A DNA stretch of 5,591 nucleotides, from assembly GCA_017431185.1 (NCBI GenBank), contig JAFRLP010000490.1, positions 1 through 5,591 on the forward strand. Direction: 5' to 3'. This DNA comes from Victivallales bacterium. Lineage in GTDB: Bacteria; Verrucomicrobiota; Lentisphaeria; Oligosphaerales; Oligosphaeraceae. The notes under the pieces are model-generated. The model saw nothing but the letters and a program-made list of their open reading frames with translations, did no database searches and was not told where the DNA came from. Of the stretch, positions 1-5,591 are shown one piece after another. Position numbers and translations under genes: made by a program. Position 1 is the first letter of the stretch. Each line of letters opens with the position of its first letter.

Positions 1-438
1 CTTGCCCCCTCCCCGCAGAATGTCGGGCGGATAGTTCCGCCCCGCCTCCACCCGAGGGACGCTTCCCCAGTCAGGTTTCGGCGCGAAAAAGCGTACTCCT
101 GGGACAACCATTGCCTCCCAGCGGCCAGGCAAAGTGCAGTAAAAGCCATGGCGGACCGTCATTTGGCAGGCGGCGGAAGACTGGCCGAATGCCAGCAGCC
201 TGGCGGTCAGGGCATGTTTGCCTGGGGATAGCGGCACGAGGACATGGTTGGTGAACCAAAGTTCAGGCGCACCCCGGTCTGGCCCCGCGGCCAGCAGTTT
301 TCCGTCCAGGAAAAGTTGGCACGACTCGTCGGCGCTGTAATCGAAGTCCAGTGTACGGGGAGCCTCCGCATCCAGGAGAAGCCTGAAGACGGCAAGGAAG
401 GGGGCGGCCGGAGCGGCCTGAGGAGACATCCATTTCAT
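1..438 (-). CDS. N-terminal part of a GH78 (alpha-L-rhamnosidase)-like protein, cut by the window edge
   Basis: The frame is open from ATG at 438 to base 1 (146 codons, no stop), so the gene continues off the left edge. The product starts MKWMSPQAAPAAPF. Residues about 29-95 have the pattern of the beta-sandwich found at the N-terminus of bacterial alpha-L-rhamnosidase-like enzymes: a hydrophobic strand, then SADESCQLFLDGKLLAAGP (the 'AD..Y.L.vNG' motif followed by 'GP'), then VPLSPGKHALTARLLAFG (the 'L.PG.N.l.a.v..yG' motif). No catalytic domain is visible. The N-terminus has no signal peptide, so a cytosolic enzyme is likely. No clear Shine-Dalgarno precedes 438; ATG at 429 is a possible alternative start. 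It is divergent from the AraC-type regulator and has a paired operator upstream. Coding is well supported; the family call is inferred from motif shape, and another glycosidase with a similar sandwich (GH2-like, for example) is possible. Confidence 0.7.
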   Translation of the reverse strand, partial: MKWMSPQAAPAAPFLAVFRLLLDAEAPRTLDFDYSADESCQLFLDGKLLAAGPDRGAPELWFTNHVLVPLSPGKHALTARLLAFGQSSAACQMTVRHGFYCTLPGRWEAMVVPGVRFFAPKPDWGSVPRVEAGRNYPPDILRGGGK

Positions 439-488: not shown

Positions 489-494
489 ATTATA
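489..494 (-). promoter_or_regulatory. Putative -10 hexamer of the leftward glycosidase-like gene
   Basis: The minus strand reads TATAAT here, giving a leader of roughly 44 nt to the ATG at 438. With a 17-bp spacer the -35 position (512-517) reads AAGGCA, which is poor, as is common for promoters that need an activator. The hexamer lies exactly 32 bp downstream of the nearest TTTGGCAC box. Confidence 0.5.
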
Positions 495-526: not shown

Positions 527-555
527 GTGCCAAATCATCATCGTTTTGTGCCAAA
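527..555 (-). promoter_or_regulatory. Left operator: two TTTGGCAC boxes, 21-bp period, facing the leftward gene
   Basis: On the minus strand, TTTGGCACAAAA occupies 555-544 and TTTGGCAC occupies 534-527, so the box starts are 21 bp apart, two helical turns. This is the classic spacing of AraC-family direct half-sites. Aligned with the pair at 1457-1485, 25 of 29 positions are identical, including part of the spacer. The pair ends 32 bp before the leftward -10 and also lies 8 bp before the regulator's ATG at 564. The likely roles are activation of the leftward gene and autoregulation. Binding by the neighbouring regulator is inferred from geometry and proximity. Confidence 0.7.
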
Positions 556-563
556 TCGGCAAA

Positions 564-1499
564 ATGAGTTCCTCGCCTCCCGTGAATCGCTTCTACCATT
601 CCACTCTGCTTGCCTTGGTGCGAGCGGAGGATTTGCCCGTCTTCATTCGGCGTGTGTCGGCTGGCCATCACCCCAATCGCCTGTTCCACGACCACGACTA
701 CACGGAAATCGCGATGGTTGCCTCTGGCGAGCCGTTGCATGTCCTGGGCGATGGCACGACCATTCGCCTGCACCCGGGAGACGTGCTGATCTTGCGGCCA
801 GGGCTCATCCATGCCTACGATGAAGCGGAGGAACTCTCCATCGTCAATGTGGTCTTCCGCCCGGAAGTGATGTTTTCGTCCGCCATTCTGGAGGATTGGA
901 ATGCGCTGCCGCTCAACGCAGCCACCGGACAGTTCGCCTTGCTTCATCTGGAGTCCCAGCAGAGGGTGTCTTTCCTTTCGGCTGTGGATGCGCTGGAACG
1001 CGAACTGAAAGGTTTGCGCACTGGTTTCCGCGTGGCTGTGACCACACGGCTGCTGGAGGTGGCGCTGGCGTTGCTGCGCCGTCCAGGCCAGGACGCCGAC
1101 CAGGATGCCGTCCGTCTGGAACACTGCATCGACTACATCAGTCGCCATTACGGCGCCACCCTGAACATTGATGCCCTATGTCGCATCGCCGCCATGTCGA
1201 GGCGAAATCTGTTCCGTCAGTTCCGTCTGCTGACGGGTTCGTCTCCGCTGGAGTATCTCATCAGCGTGCGTCTTCACCAGGCCGTGAACCGGCTTCTCTC
1301 CACCACCGACACCGTGGCGGCCATCGCCCAGGATTGCGGATTCTATGACAGCAATGCCTTTTGTCGCCATTTTCAAAGCCGTTTCAACATGACTCCAAGG
1401 CAATTCCGCCAAGCCAGCATCGTCAAGGGAAACACGAAGGAGGATGGAAAAAATACTTTGGCACAAAATGAAGATTCTTTGGCACAAAAAAAGAGGTGA
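564..1499 (+). CDS. AraC-family transcriptional regulator, RhaS/RhaR-like cupin plus HTH
   Basis: A 311-residue protein of typical AraC-family length. The N-terminal cupin sensor contains HDHDYTE (residues 42-48), HPGD (70-73), GLIHAY (80-85) and LSIVNVVFRP, an arrangement resembling the sugar-binding domain of RhaS/RhaR. The C-terminal double helix-turn-helix spans about 185-283: NIDALCRIAAMSRRNLFRQF forms the first HTH, IAQDCGFYDSNAFCRHFQ the second, followed by the family signature FNMTPRQFR. I chose ATG 564; the frame also opens at TTG 546, but that codon lies inside the operator. No Shine-Dalgarno is visible. A non-conserved tail of about 28 residues follows the HTH and contains LAQ at 299-301 and 306-308, encoded by the right operator pair. 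It probably binds a mono- or oligosaccharide and activates both flanking units; rhamnose is only a guess from similarity. Confidence 0.93.
   Translation: MSSSPPVNRFYHSTLLALVRAEDLPVFIRRVSAGHHPNRLFHDHDYTEIAMVASGEPLHVLGDGTTIRLHPGDVLILRPGLIHAYDEAEELSIVNVVFRPEVMFSSAILEDWNALPLNAATGQFALLHLESQQRVSFLSAVDALERELKGLRTGFRVAVTTRLLEVALALLRRPGQDADQDAVRLEHCIDYISRHYGATLNIDALCRIAAMSRRNLFRQFRLLTGSSPLEYLISVRLHQAVNRLLSTTDTVAAIAQDCGFYDSNAFCRHFQSRFNMTPRQFRQASIVKGNTKEDGKNTLAQNEDSLAQKKR
1457..1485 (+). promoter_or_regulatory. Right operator: two TTTGGCAC boxes, 21-bp period, inside the regulator's 3' end
   Basis: TTTGGCACAAAA at 1457-1468 and TTTGGCAC at 1478-1485 (this copy is also followed by AAAA) are direct repeats 21 bp apart, facing the pseudopilin operon. 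The spacer shares GA and GAT with the left pair. The boxes are read in frame as Leu-Ala-Gln near the regulator's C-terminus. The pair ends 32 bp before TATAGT, the same distance as on the left. If the half-site is about 17 bp, as in AraC, the proximal one would run up to the -35 position. Confidence 0.7.
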
Positions 1500-1517
1500 A
1501 TATTGTTGAGAACAGTG

Positions 1518-1523
1518 TATAGT
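1518..1523 (+). promoter_or_regulatory. Putative -10 hexamer of the pseudopilin-glycosidase operon
   Basis: TATAGT, one mismatch from consensus. The -35 position at a 17-bp spacer (1495-1500, GGTGAA) is poor, consistent with dependence on an activator. The predicted start near 1530 leaves a leader of about 70 nt. The assignment is supported mainly by the 32-bp distance to the operator, which matches the left promoter. Confidence 0.5.
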
Positions 1524-1598: not shown

Positions 1599-2405
1599 AT
1601 GAAAATTTGTCAACCCAGATTCACACTTGTTGAATTGTTGGTAGTGATAGCCATCATCGCCATACTGGCGTCCATGCTGTTGCCGGCGTTGAGCAAGGCT
1701 CGGGAGAAAGGACGGGCTGTCAGTTGCGCCAGCCAGATGCGCCAGCTTGGAATCGCGTTTCAGATTTATCTCCAGGACAACGAGGACTTCTATCCCATTG
1801 GACGCGGCGCCTCTGGGGAGAACTGCTGGGCGGGATGCCTGGCCGTCAATAAATACATTTCGGAGACGAAACTGCTATGCTGCCCCAGCCGTTCCGCCCT
1901 TGGTCTAAGCAACTCCACGACTAGCGGGAGTTACACCAAAGTCTATCGCAACACCGTCTTGCAGGAGACCTCGCCCTTGGCGGAGAGTTCATGGGCGTAC
2001 ATTGACTATGGCTACAACAAGTGGTGGCTGGGCAGTTGGGCCAGGGCCAGCGCCAATGGCGAGACCTACAGCATGAAAGCCACCAGGTTGCCTCGTGTGT
2101 CAGAAACCGTGAATTGCCTGGAGGCTGTCCAGTCCAATTGGCTGAACGGAGGCCTTGCGGCTCCATTGGGACGGTGCTATGTGTTCCATTACTACAACGA
2201 TGGCCAGCCGATGCCCTATCCGGTGCATACCCTGAGCCTCAATGTCCTCTGGTGTGACGGACACATCTCCGTTCTTGGCGGGGCGCCCAGCACCAAAAGT
2301 TCCGACTGGACAACCCGCCTCTATGCCTCCGGCGGCAGGCTGGAAGGAAGCTGGGGAGGCAACACCACGCACGATATGTGGGGCGGAGACGCATGGAGGA
2401 GATGA
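1599..2405 (+). CDS. Type II secretion/type IV pilin-like pseudopilin, H-X9-DG family
   Basis: A 268-residue protein. The short basic leader MKICQPR is followed by [20 protein letters not shown], the class III prepilin signal with Glu at +5 (residue 12) and a transmembrane/assembly helix to about residue 30, then the usual [11 protein letters not shown]. The residue before the expected cleavage site is Arg7 rather than the canonical Gly. The globular part has CCPS at 94-97 and, near the C-terminus, H210 followed by nine residues and D220-G221 within LNVLWCDGH. This is the H-X9-DG signature of a pseudopilin family that is greatly expanded in Lentisphaerota and Planctomycetota. It is expected in the inner membrane/periplasm after processing by a prepilin peptidase (none is encoded here). 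Its stop overlaps the start region of the next gene, indicating co-translation. Its precise role is unknown; help in export or display of the neighbouring glycosidase is an inference. Confidence 0.92.
2395..2401 (+). promoter_or_regulatory. Ribosome binding site of the exported glycosidase-like gene
   Basis: GGAGGAG, a near-perfect Shine-Dalgarno inside the last codons of the pseudopilin gene. It is followed by three consecutive in-frame ATGs at 2402, 2405 and 2408. The 6-nt spacing favours 2408. The ATG at 2402 would overlap the upstream stop as ATGA. Either choice implies translational coupling. Confidence 0.75.
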
Positions 2406-2407
2406 TG

Positions 2408-5227
2408 ATGCAACGTAACGCACTTCTGCTGGCGCTGTTTGCCGCTGTCACGCTGACCGCCCAGAACCTGGTCCGCAATCCCGCGTTTGACGGCAATCCG
2501 CCGGCTGGCTGGCGACTGGCAGGCGCGCAATGCGAAAATGGAGTCGCCGCTGTGGCAAAGAATCCAGATGGCTCCAATGGCTTTCTGGAGCAAACGCTGA
2601 AAGGGCCAGTCAAGGGACGCCGCTACCGCATCTCCTGTGAAGCCATGGGAGAGCCTGGCAGCCTGTTCCGTTTCTGCGCATACTGGTCGGCGGGAAATCA
2701 TGCGTCCCCCAGAAAACGTGCCTCTGACAACTGGAAGAAACACCAGGGCAACGGCAAATGGGTCACGCTTTCCAGCGAGATCACCTATGATGCGGATGCC
2801 ATCAACGACATCCGAGTCTCCTTTGTCACCTTTGAGGGCAAGGTGCAGATGCGTCACCCTGTTGTGGAGGAGATGGAACAGCCGCCAGAACTGCCGTCCG
2901 TGCAGGGAGGGCGATGGAGTTTCCATCCGACCGCAGCCGGCGTACACATGCAGGAAGGTCAGCCAGCCCTGGTAATCAAGTTTGCGGGAAGCCTATGGAC
3001 GCCTGCGGCGGAGATCAAAGGCATTCCCATCAAGCCAGGGCAGAGATACCGCTTGCGCTATGAGGCGCTCGGCATCGGGCAGGCGGTCAGAGATACAGGA
3101 TTCCATGGCTACCGCGTCGAATTGTCCGTGCCCGACCAAGGGTACAGCGCCCGACGGCCTTTTGAGGAGGTCTGGGCTAGCAGTTGGCAGGGCAAAAGCG
3201 CACTGCTCGACAAATTGCCGACGAGCGCGACGTCCGTTGACGTGCGGCTCTTCGCGGAGTCGGGGTGTACCGTAGCCTTCCGCAATTTCTCCCTGGAGGA
3301 GTACACTCCGCCCATCACAGCCGACGCCCAACTGATCCTGACCAGTCCGCTTTACAGAGACTCCATCTATGCCTCCCTGCCCGTGAAGGAACTCACGGGG
3401 CATGTGCTCATGCCACCCGATGTGCGCAACTATCGGGTGAGGCTGGAACAGGGCGGAAAAGCGCTGGCCTCGGTCTCGCGGACGGTGGATTGCTCCTTCG
3501 TCTTGCCAGCCAGTGAACTGACCGAAGGAGAGGCGACGGTGATTGCCGAAGGTCTCTCAGACAAAAATGATGTTCTGCGGACGGTCACCCGAAAGCTGCG
3601 CAAACTCCCGCCAGCCGCGCACGAGATGGTGATGGGCCCCAACCGAATCATGTACTTTGACGGAGTGCCCTTTCTCCCGACCATGCTGATGGGCGAATTG
3701 CCAAACGATGACTTTGCCGCCTTTGCCTCCGCGCATGGCCTCAACTCCTTCCTGGGACGCAGCGGCACCGCGAAAGGCATCCTCGCTTTGCTGGAGATGG
3801 CACGCCGCCATGGGCTGAAGATGATGCTGGGCTATACATACGCCAAGGATGGCAATCTGGCCAGTTTCAGGCAACGCGCCCAAAGGCTGCTTTCGGCGGA
3901 GGTCACCGCCCATCCGTCTTTGCTGGGCTACTTTCTGGCGGACGAGCCGTTCTGGACAGGGGCAAACCTGGACTATCTTCGCGAATCCTACAACATCCTC
4001 AGGGAGCGCGACCCTTATCACCCCGTATGGATCAACTCCGCTCCGCCAAGCACACTGGAGGAAAACCGCCCCTATATGGCCTGCGCGGACATCAATGGCT
4101 TTGACGTCTATCCCGTCCCCTACCCCTGCACACATTCCTTCATCGCCGACAAATATCCGACGGCATTGGGAAAATACAGCCAACTCGCCTTTGACACATC
4201 CGGGGGACGGCATGCCGTCTGGATGGTACACCAGGCCCATAGTTGGAAACGCTATATTCCAGGCAAGCCGGACTCCGTCATCTATCCCAACCTGGATGAA
4301 TTGCGCTTCATGTGCTTTGACTCATTGCTTCATCAGGCCAGCGGAGTCATCTACTGGGGGAGCAACAACGTGGTCGAGCCGCAGTTTCTGCGCCACGTGC
4401 TTGCCTCATGTGCGGAAGTCGAGAGCCTCTCCCGACTGCTTGCCGAGGGCCGTCGGCGCCTGCTTTCGGAACAGGATGACCTGGCAGTCCACGAGCTGGA
4501 GTTCGGCGGTTTGCGCTGGCTGGCCGTCCTGAACTGCTCGACCAGGGAAAGGGAGGTCTCCTTCCCCGCCCCATGCTTTGGCAACGGTTTGGTCACGGTC
4601 TTTCACGAGCAGCGAAAAGTGGAGTGCAGGGAGGGAGTGCTCCAGGACCGTTTCAGGCCCTATTCCGTGCATCTCTACGGCGTCGCTCCACTGCCGCCCG
4701 CCTATCGGGAGCCGCCTTTGTGGCAAGGGAAAAACGACCCGCTGGAGGAGTTTTGCCGCCGTGTCCGCGACCCAGGCGCAAAATACGCGGGGACGGCCAA
4801 CTGGCTGTGGGAGGAATCGACTGCCGCGACGGTGGCTGGCAAGGCCTTTCTGCGCCGTCACCTCAAACTTGACGCTCCTGTGAAATCCGCCACCATCCTG
4901 GCATCTGTGGATGACTATGCCTCCCTCACGGTCAACGGACAGCCTTGCGCCAGTTTCGGTGGCTGGTCACAACTCACGAAAGTCGATATCACCCATCTTC
5001 TGCGAATAGGGGACAATCTCATGCTTGTCGAAGCGGAGGATGCAGGACATCTGCCCTGTGCCTTCCTGGCTGAAATACACCTGGAACACATGGATGGCCA
5101 GAGCACAGTCATCATCACCGACGACCAATGGGAGAGCGCGGCGACCGAGGATGGCCCCTGGCATCCCGCCAAAGTCATCGCACCGTATGGGCAAGGCGCC
5201 TGGGGACGCAAGGTGCAGTTGCCTTGA
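2408..5227 (+). CDS. Exported multidomain glycoside hydrolase-like protein (clan GH-A-type TIM barrel)
   Basis: A 939-residue protein. Residues 1-18 (MQRNALLLALFAAVTLTA) form a Sec signal peptide with probable cleavage before Gln19. Residues about 20-157 begin NLVRNPAFDGNPPAGW and look like a CBM4/9-type jelly-roll; about 160-300 look like a second such module; about 305-410 look like an Ig-like linker. A TIM barrel spans roughly 412-690: RIMYFDGVPFLPTM at the first strand, LGYFLADEPFW with D512-E513 as candidate acid/base region, INGFDVYPVPYP at 563-572, WMVHQAHSW at 605-613 and VIYWGSNN at 647-654. A sandwich follows, and residues about 780-939 (ANWLW, LTVNGQ, LLRIGDNLMLV, ITDDQW at 903-908) resemble an alpha-L-rhamnosidase accessory domain. 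No obvious strand-7 nucleophile Glu is seen. I do not recognise a numbered GH family; the substrate is unknown, probably a plant or host glycan. Coupled to the pseudopilin. Confidence 0.85.
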   Translation: MQRNALLLALFAAVTLTAQNLVRNPAFDGNPPAGWRLAGAQCENGVAAVAKNPDGSNGFLEQTLKGPVKGRRYRISCEAMGEPGSLFRFCAYWSAGNHASPRKRASDNWKKHQGNGKWVTLSSEITYDADAINDIRVSFVTFEGKVQMRHPVVEEMEQPPELPSVQGGRWSFHPTAAGVHMQEGQPALVIKFAGSLWTPAAEIKGIPIKPGQRYRLRYEALGIGQAVRDTGFHGYRVELSVPDQGYSARRPFEEVWASSWQGKSALLDKLPTSATSVDVRLFAESGCTVAFRNFSLEEYTPPITADAQLILTSPLYRDSIYASLPVKELTGHVLMPPDVRNYRVRLEQGGKALASVSRTVDCSFVLPASELTEGEATVIAEGLSDKNDVLRTVTRKLRKLPPAAHEMVMGPNRIMYFDGVPFLPTMLMGELPNDDFAAFASAHGLNSFLGRSGTAKGILALLEMARRHGLKMMLGYTYAKDGNLASFRQRAQRLLSAEVTAHPSLLGYFLADEPFWTGANLDYLRESYNILRERDPYHPVWINSAPPSTLEENRPYMACADINGFDVYPVPYPCTHSFIADKYPTALGKYSQLAFDTSGGRHAVWMVHQAHSWKRYIPGKPDSVIYPNLDELRFMCFDSLLHQASGVIYWGSNNVVEPQFLRHVLASCAEVESLSRLLAEGRRRLLSEQDDLAVHELEFGGLRWLAVLNCSTREREVSFPAPCFGNGLVTVFHEQRKVECREGVLQDRFRPYSVHLYGVAPLPPAYREPPLWQGKNDPLEEFCRRVRDPGAKYAGTANWLWEESTAATVAGKAFLRRHLKLDAPVKSATILASVDDYASLTVNGQPCASFGGWSQLTKVDITHLLRIGDNLMLVEAEDAGHLPCAFLAEIHLEHMDGQSTVIITDDQWESAATEDGPWHPAKVIAPYGQGAWGRKVQLP

Positions 5228-5300: not shown

Positions 5301-5591
5301 TCACGGCAGATAGGTCATGGCCTGTTCGCGTGAAAGATGGAAGTCCTCGCACAGGGCATCCAGGACATTCTCCCTGCTGACATTCATGCGCAGCAGCCTG
5401 GCCACGTATGCCAGAATGCCTCGCTTCTCTCCCTCTTTCATTCCCTCTTTCATTCCCGCTTCCTTGCCTCTTGTCTCACCGATTCTCTCTGCCTCTTCGC
5501 ACAACTCCTGTTCCGCCTTGCACATGTTCATGGTCTCCTTTTTTCGTGGAATCCTGAAACTGGCGCCTGTGACAGCGCGGATGACCCTCGC
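5301..5591 (-). CDS. C-terminal part of an Rpn/PD-(D/E)XK-type putative nuclease/transposase, cut by the window edge
   Basis: The minus-strand frame is open from the right edge (base 5591) to TGA at 5301-5303, giving 96 residues of a longer protein. ATG 5531 is an internal methionine, since the frame reads on upstream as VTGASFRIPRKKETMNMCKA. The order VTGA..RIP...MCKA, then a charged Glu/Gly/Lys stretch (ETRGKEAGMKEGMKEGEKRG), then a short helical C-terminus (LLRMNVSRENVLDALCEDFHLSREQA) matches the tail of Rpn-family recombination-promoting nucleases/putative transposases, which usually run to about 250-350 residues. The catalytic PD-(D/E)XK domain would lie outside the window, so activity cannot be judged. 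It converges on the glycosidase gene with 73 bp between the stops. The family call rests on this tail pattern only. Confidence 0.7.
   Translation of the reverse strand, partial: ARVIRAVTGASFRIPRKKETMNMCKAEQELCEEAERIGETRGKEAGMKEGMKEGEKRGILAYVARLLRMNVSRENVLDALCEDFHLSREQAMTYLP
5431..5454 (-). repeat. Two perfect 12-bp tandem units inside the Rpn-like gene
   Basis: The plus strand carries CCCTCTTTCATT twice in a row with no mismatch. On the coding strand this yields Met-Lys-Glu-Gly twice, followed by a degenerate Glu-Lys-Arg-Gly. Such repeats in the charged hinge of Rpn-like proteins expand and contract in frame by slippage, because the unit is a multiple of three. Confidence 0.8.

Follow-up and report, generated by a model that had tools for sequence, protein, structure and literature searches.

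Which protein reads the two near-identical pairs of boxes around the AraC-type regulator gene of this Victivallales contig, and what would it do there? The window, i.e., the whole 5,591-nt stretch that was analyzed, holds four exact copies of TTTGGCAC and no further one, set as two direct pairs with a 21-bp period. We consider it very probable (about 0.86), from sequence comparison across relatives, that the AraC/RhaS-like regulator whose gene lies between the pairs uses both of them as operators, on which its tandem protomers would activate the two flanking units.

Two box pairs around an AraC/RhaS-like regulator gene

The features of the window on which this reading draws are the following.

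1..438, minus strand: first gene of the left unit, an open ORF that runs off the window after 146 aa and is predicted to be controlled from the left operator
489..494, minus strand: TATAAT, predicted to be the -10 hexamer for the left unit; the second box ends 32 nt before it
527..534, minus strand: left candidate operator, promoter-proximal half-site TTTGGCAC, core GGCAC, exact match
548..555, minus strand: left candidate operator, promoter-distal half-site TTTGGCAC, core GGCAC, exact match
564..1499, plus strand: AraC/RhaS-like regulator, AraC_binding/cupin N terminus plus HTH_18; stop codon at 1497-1499
1197..1223, plus strand: HTH1 recognition helix SRRNLFRQF (h1-h9), coordinates counted on the sequence
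1457..1464, plus strand: right candidate operator, distal half-site TTTGGCAC, within the 3' end of the regulator gene, exact match
1478..1485, plus strand: right candidate operator, proximal half-site TTTGGCAC, within the 3' end of the regulator gene, exact match
1518..1523, plus strand: TATAGT, predicted to be the -10 hexamer for the right unit; the second box ends 32 nt before it
1599..2405, plus strand: prepilin-like (pseudopilin) protein with an N-terminal methylation motif and DUF1559, first gene of the right unit
2402..5227, plus strand: 941-aa protein with a weak C-terminal rhamnosidase-type domain, second gene of the right unit

On recount, everything that the initial annotation had said of the boxes themselves proved correct: their sequence and period, the near-identity of the two 29-mers (minus-strand 555-527 and plus-strand 1457-1485), which match at 25 of 29 positions, the outward orientation of both pairs, the spacer of exactly 32 from second box to -10 in both, and the poor -35s, which read AAGGCA (left) and GGTGAA (right) at a 17-bp spacer. 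The left pair precedes the regulator gene and stops 8 bp short of the ATG at 564. The right pair is not intergenic and overlaps the gene's 3' end, within the last codons. There, the regulator tail NTLAQNEDSLAQKKR (the last residues, with two LAQ repeats; window 1457-1499) overlaps the right operator; this tail is missing from the 79% identical regulator P0002. Both pairs show the layout of AraC-type activator operators: the half-sites are direct repeats with a 21-bp period, a poor -35 adjoins the proximal half-site, and the distance to the -10 is 32 nt in both.

The protein encoded between the pairs has the double HTH of the AraC/XylS family together with a sensor domain such as is found in many members. 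Its C-terminal double HTH passes Pfam (HTH_18 and HTH_AraC at 80.8 and 58.7 bits, versus cut-offs of 33.6 and 26.6), as does its N-terminal cupin-type sensor domain (AraC_binding, 34 versus 21.1 bits; Cupin_2, 30.6 versus 27.2). RhaS is among its closest curated models, at 112.8 bits and below the NF010028 cut-off of 288; against the arabinose AraC equivalog NF007860, it scores 59.1 bits, below the cut-off of 208. A database of 5.8 billion proteins returned eight matches, of which one was the regulator itself, one was 79% identical, and two were 36-37% identical. The regulator probably responds to a sugar signal, a reading drawn from the RhaS-like match, the cupin sensor, and the 941-aa protein with its weak domain of the rhamnosidase type; by the same analogy, the ligand may perhaps be a rhamnoside.

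In the right unit, the start of the 941-aa gene overlaps the stop of the pilin gene by 4 bp. Residues ~797-938 of the 941-aa protein resemble a lectin/rhamnosidase domain, and among the matches listed the protein database gave back only the protein itself. The 146-aa piece of the left-unit gene had no match in Pfam, PDB, or the protein database, the last being compared only for proteins of a length similar to the piece. A gene fragment at 5301-5591 (minus strand) has weak similarity, below the cut-off, to the Rpn family (recombination-promoting nucleases).

The 21-bp geometry beside related AraC genes

Related genomes were searched for the spaced pair, as had been put forward as a check. The exact pair occurs once each in five of 387 genomes of a distant relative's phylum (the backward word in none), and only two of the five (L013 and L015) adjoin an AraC gene. 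The pair of L015 (genome G059) has a divergent AraC gene on one side and a pilin gene on the other, and the search was continued in the order of G059 (137 genomes), which may belong to the Lentisphaeria side of the phylum. At any spacing from 3 to 33, the exact word was not enriched in these 137 genomes (15 matches versus ~70 for the backward word); the 15 matches fell in 12 genomes, three at N13 and two at N12, with no clear 21-bp peak. Pairs with at most one mismatch, in contrast, stand at 36 places in 25 of 120 genomes, compared with 16 places in 13 genomes for the backward word; an AraC HTH lies within 1.5 kb of 13 of the 30 loci fetched from these 36 places but of none of 16 backward-word loci (Fisher p = 0.0015). 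When L013 is counted with the 13, 13 of 14 AraC-adjacent pairs point away from the divergent AraC gene, and 11 of 14 are followed by a hexamer that matches TATAAT at 5 or more of its 6 positions at a spacer of 30-34. The other 17 fetched pairs are without an AraC gene nearby; ten of them lie in DNA of GC at least 0.50, and three (L019, L021, and L041) have a -10 hexamer.

Two further arrangements were met in these searches. L048/L056 (G077:C76:76055-76111) has three successive TTTGGCAC boxes in a different arrangement, with periods of 20 and 29, and genome G386 (L327, L340, and L342) has tandem CACGGTT repeats of period 7 on three contigs, which came up through the control pattern. A viral collection yielded neither a relative of the regulator nor a box pair.

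A 21-bp peak appears only if the boxes may differ between loci. We counted 12-mer direct repeats of any word with at least 10 matches in the 200 bp upstream of 90 AraC loci related to the window regulator (30 plus 60 more among the matches listed), at periods of 10-45. Period 21 was present in 27 of the 90 loci, other periods in 0-3, and the shuffle mean at 21 was 0.4. It recurred in 14 of 56 further loci (0-2 for the other periods from 12 to 41), in 13 of 90 AraC genes of genome G400 (the best 90 of 150 by HTH score; 0-6 for other periods), and in 5 of 30 of genome G428 (the best 30 of 98 by HTH score; 0-1 for other periods). The geometry belongs to part of the AraC genes and is not universal, being chiefly a trait of the clade near the window regulator. 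G400 (6.0 Mb) has at least 150 AraC-type HTH matches (150 scored of 216 candidates), and G428 (5.3 Mb) has 98, some of them partial.

Among 197 genomes of the class, with at most 11 candidates scored per genome, the nearest regulators found share 35-39% identity with that of the window. With the helix numbered S1 R2 R3 N4 L5 F6 R7 Q8 F9 in the window, all five nearest carry R3 and R7, and, read by eye, all five show pairs of the G[GT]C type with a 21-bp period and, after them, a hexamer resembling TATAAT. The reading of the initial annotation, in which direct half-sites of the AraC family with a 21-bp period precede a poor -35, is supported: the geometry recurs beside the AraC genes of relatives, and so does the distance to the -10.

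These pairs could also be operators of the regulator that serve mainly for repression, or the left pair could mediate its autorepression, a reading that we hold unlikely. Only 8 bp separate the left pair from the start codon at 564, so that a bound regulator would block its own leader, and many AraC proteins do autoregulate. Repression, however, would not need the fixed distance of 32 nt that both window pairs, in the same orientation, keep from an outward -10, and the 13 of 14 pairs of relatives that point away from the regulator gene are as expected for target activation. Activation of the flanking units remains the reading that we prefer.

A constant promoter frame with a variable core

Forty-six of the 90 related loci have a TCAAGG-like element 25-26 nt before TAnnnT, a distance that was part of the selection. 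Aligned, these framed promoters read TTT-core-TATTATACTATTT-TTT-core-taatgTCAAGG, with a core of 5 bp. Within a locus, both half-sites have the same base at core positions 1-5 in 40, 34, 40, 31, and 32 of the 46 loci, whereas 21.6, 19.0, 19.5, 21.6, and 12.0 would be expected with the loci mixed. With the pair disregarded, the 90 flanks contain 52 TCAAGG elements, 21 of which have a -10 variant after 19 nt and 24 after 20 nt. A test set was drawn from 59 new loci, 16 of them framed; two framed loci and one unframed locus had been seen earlier and were dropped, which left 14. Together, the 60 framed loci (46 + 14) come from 41 genomes and display 53 distinct half-site cores. Not one of 25 framed within-genome paralogue pairs (14 genomes) has a common core, and within the ~2-4 kb of each of the 60 loci no second same-core pair was found except for three self-overlapping matches.

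In its core, its period, and the comparable distance to the -10, the window resembles the framed loci. Their TATACTA-like spacer is absent from the window pairs, and so is a TCAAGG 19-20 nt before the -10: the window has just three copies of this element, at 1423, 2610, and 5222, and none of them follows the boxes. The two absences count against membership in the framed group, and the remainder of the window half-sites therefore differs from that of the framed relatives.

Among the genes downstream of the framed promoters, a prepilin motif was recognized in 15 of 60 loci (some loci end too soon), and other targets look by eye like sugar-metabolism enzymes. Seven loci (L116, L140, L143, L146, L289, L324, and L326) combine the distal core CGTAA with the helix APST[LF]LPVF (7/7) and have a divergent gene with MQGTFRFSFGPWNIHEGADPFGP, of the xylose-isomerase type by eye; this is a conserved regulator-target unit. 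The idea that TCAAGG is a general promoter element was not supported: GTCAAGG-N19/20-TATAAT has 14 matches in 41 genomes, six adjoin an AraC gene, and four of these six were already in the 90-locus set. By eye, a 21-bp pair is recognizable at five of the six AraC-adjacent matches and, among the other eight, at L355 alone; at L349, the two cores agree at two of five positions. L355 (G090:C16:6725-6756) is a framed pair (TTTGGCGA / ATAGGCGG, then TCAAGG and TATAAT) with no AraC gene within the locus and is possibly a distant target of a regulator.

Four rules that relate the HTH1 helix to the core were written from the 46 training loci before the test; 12 framed loci of G400 and G428 had already been seen. 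Rule 1, that R7 is present if and only if base 1 is G, fits 88 of 91 training half-sites (the breaks are one half-site each at L080, L086, and L095) and 27 of 28 test half-sites. Nine of the 14 test loci have helices new to training (eight different ones), and their 18 half-sites all fit. Among 30 representatives with less than 55% HTH identity, the locus table for this rule was 22, 1, 0, and 7 (Fisher p = 3.9e-6). Rule 2, by which R3 plus R7 gives G[GT]C, fits 41 of 42 training half-sites and both test half-sites, which come from one locus. According to rule 4, E at h2 goes with a last base other than C (21/22 training and 6/6 test half-sites), and R or K at h2, with R3 and R7, goes with C (23/24 training half-sites; zero test loci). 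Rule 3, which paired Q at h6 with G at base 4 and any other residue with a base other than G, was rejected: regulators without Q had G at base 4 in 12 of 83 half-sites of the training set and in 10 of 28 of the test set, which contained zero loci with Q at h6.

In a scan of 85 HTH columns in 28 representatives, base 1 had its top column in h7, bases 2 and 3 had theirs in h3, and base 5 had h2 followed by h6; in a 36-member set, h6 came first and h2 second for base 5. No strong HTH column emerged for base 4 in the 85-column scan. Base 3 also gave a score with column C68 of HTH2, as did base 1 with h1; both may be clade effects. Relatedness alone would not pick out the same few helix positions. 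The combination of R3 and R7 occurs in 22 of 23 framed regulators with the distal core G[GT]C and in none of 37 with other cores, as well as in all 14 regulators beside TTTGGCAC pairs that were found from the DNA (L031 of these is the same place as L076 of the 90); the baseline is 15 of 90 AraC genes in G400 and 3 of 30 in G428.

In the window, R7, R3, and R2 predict GGC-C, base 4 not being specified, and all four half-sites read GGCAC. Since the core covaries with the HTH1 recognition helix, we assign the boxes to the adjacent regulator and not to another protein. The support for the proposed candidate regulon of both flanking units is computational. An unlinked AraC paralogue or a global regulator might nonetheless bind the boxes, which we judge a little less probable than repression. 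Related genomes are indeed rich in AraC-type genes (at least 150 matches in G400), and the AT-rich pairs with a -10 at L019, L021, and L041 have no AraC gene within 1.5 kb; against this stand the core that follows the helix of the adjacent regulator and the 25 within-genome paralogue pairs among which no core is common. The regulator encoded between the pairs is the better candidate for their reader.

Within the near clade, paralogues would keep the promoter frame while the 5-bp core and four positions of the HTH1 helix change together, which amounts to a natural recognition code; regulator-operator pairs of one genome would then have no core in common, and the window would be a distant GGCAC member with a second operator in the 3' end of its regulator gene, by which a second unit would be controlled. 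Judged from the sequences compared, we find this broader reading likelier to hold than to fail, though by a smaller degree than the operator reading itself. We do not rate it higher because rule 1 fits only 14 of 24 half-sites outside the near clade, in the loosely related AraC genes of 12 framed loci from two genomes (10 of 14 where TCAAGG is exact). Several of these 12 G400/G428 loci have no real pair. Outside the near clade, the core-helix code is not established.

Proposed mechanism, known systems, and significance

From the computed geometry, recurrence, and core-helix covariation in relatives, we infer binding, activation, a ligand, co-regulation, and a role for HTH2 as follows. One regulator protomer would occupy each TTTGGCAC half-site, with the HTH1 recognition helix reading GGCAC through the arginine at h7 (base 1), the arginine at h3 (bases 2-3), and h2/h6 (base 5), and HTH2 would reach the next DNA turn. 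Two tandem protomers would lie on one face of the DNA, 21 bp apart, the proximal one beside the poor -35, where it would help RNA polymerase at the -10, 32 bp on. In this way, the regulator would turn on two units, the divergent one on the left and, on the right, that of the prepilin-like and 941-aa proteins.

Could the box pairs instead be chance repeats or a repeated mobile sequence? We regard this as highly improbable. With at most one mismatch, TTTGGCAC has 12 matches in the window; shuffled sequences average 5.75, and 12 is attained in 2 of 200. Some 8-mer with equal spacing at two or more places turned up in 15 of 500 dinucleotide shuffles of the window, a loose count that ignores intergenic position, outward orientation, and equal distance to the -10, and the stretch shared by the two pairs is just 29 bp, identical at 25 of 29 positions; both points could be taken in favor of chance or mobility. 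Against them stands the fact that such pairs, with the period and the distance to the -10 unchanged, recur beside AraC genes, which is a stronger argument against chance than the shuffles; the original claim that the match is very unlikely by chance is upheld chiefly on that ground. That TTTGGCAC is the -24 element of sigma-54 promoters, for which the resemblance of TGGCAC to the -24 consensus is the sole support, is hardly credible and was rejected, as 21-bp pairs with a TATAAT-type -10 do not fit and TGGCAC-N5-TTGCW is absent from both strands of the window.

Operation by the adjacent AraC/RhaS-like regulator has parallels in known systems. At araI1-araI2, AraC of Escherichia coli binds a direct pair of half-sites with a 21-bp period next to a weak -35, and the window regulator shares with it the AraC family and this arrangement; unlike E. 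coli AraC, it has two operators, which flank its own gene, and does not reach the arabinose AraC model. RhaS and RhaR of E. coli are its closest curated models, but their sites are inverted repeats, whereas those of the window are direct repeats, and the RhaS score stays below the cut-off. MarA, SoxS, and Rob have the same HTH domain, as detected by sequence; MarA and SoxS lack an N-terminal sensor domain and use single asymmetric sites, in contrast to the sensor and paired sites of the window regulator. AdpA of Streptomyces griseus (PDB 3w6v) aligns with the window regulator and likewise has arginines at h3 and h7 of its helix, SRRTFDRRF. An excerpted report describes AdpA as a pleiotropic regulator with the consensus TGGCSNGWWY, which begins with TGGC (PMC3411110); unlike the window operators, this consensus as excerpted is without a 21-bp pair at a fixed -10 distance. 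According to an excerpt of a second paper, the AraC protein CdpR may recognize base pairs via two arginines that correspond to AdpA Arg262 and Arg266 (PMC4847859), and their four-residue spacing would make these two h3 and h7. AdpA is an independent experimental case of an arginine-pair helix with a TGGC site.

The AraC-type operator geometry is already known in kind. Three features are new as far as our limited literature searches go: a frame that runs through the lineage while the core is specific to each locus, the map of covariation, and an operator present twice, once in the coding end of the regulator gene. A limited literature search, thin on subscription journals, found nothing on this system, which does not imply that it is unpublished.

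AraC-type regulators are very numerous, and their target sites are usually unpredictable from sequence. The relatives analyzed here suggest that such regulators may read a short DNA address via a few changeable residues, and the many core-helix combinations within one fixed promoter frame make a predictive HTH1 code readable and testable. In the window, the candidate regulon consists of the left, divergent unit together with the genes of the prepilin-like and 941-aa proteins. If the code holds true, targets of similar uncharacterized AraC regulators would be nameable from the genome alone, and mutually silent regulator-operator sets would be on hand for synthetic circuits.
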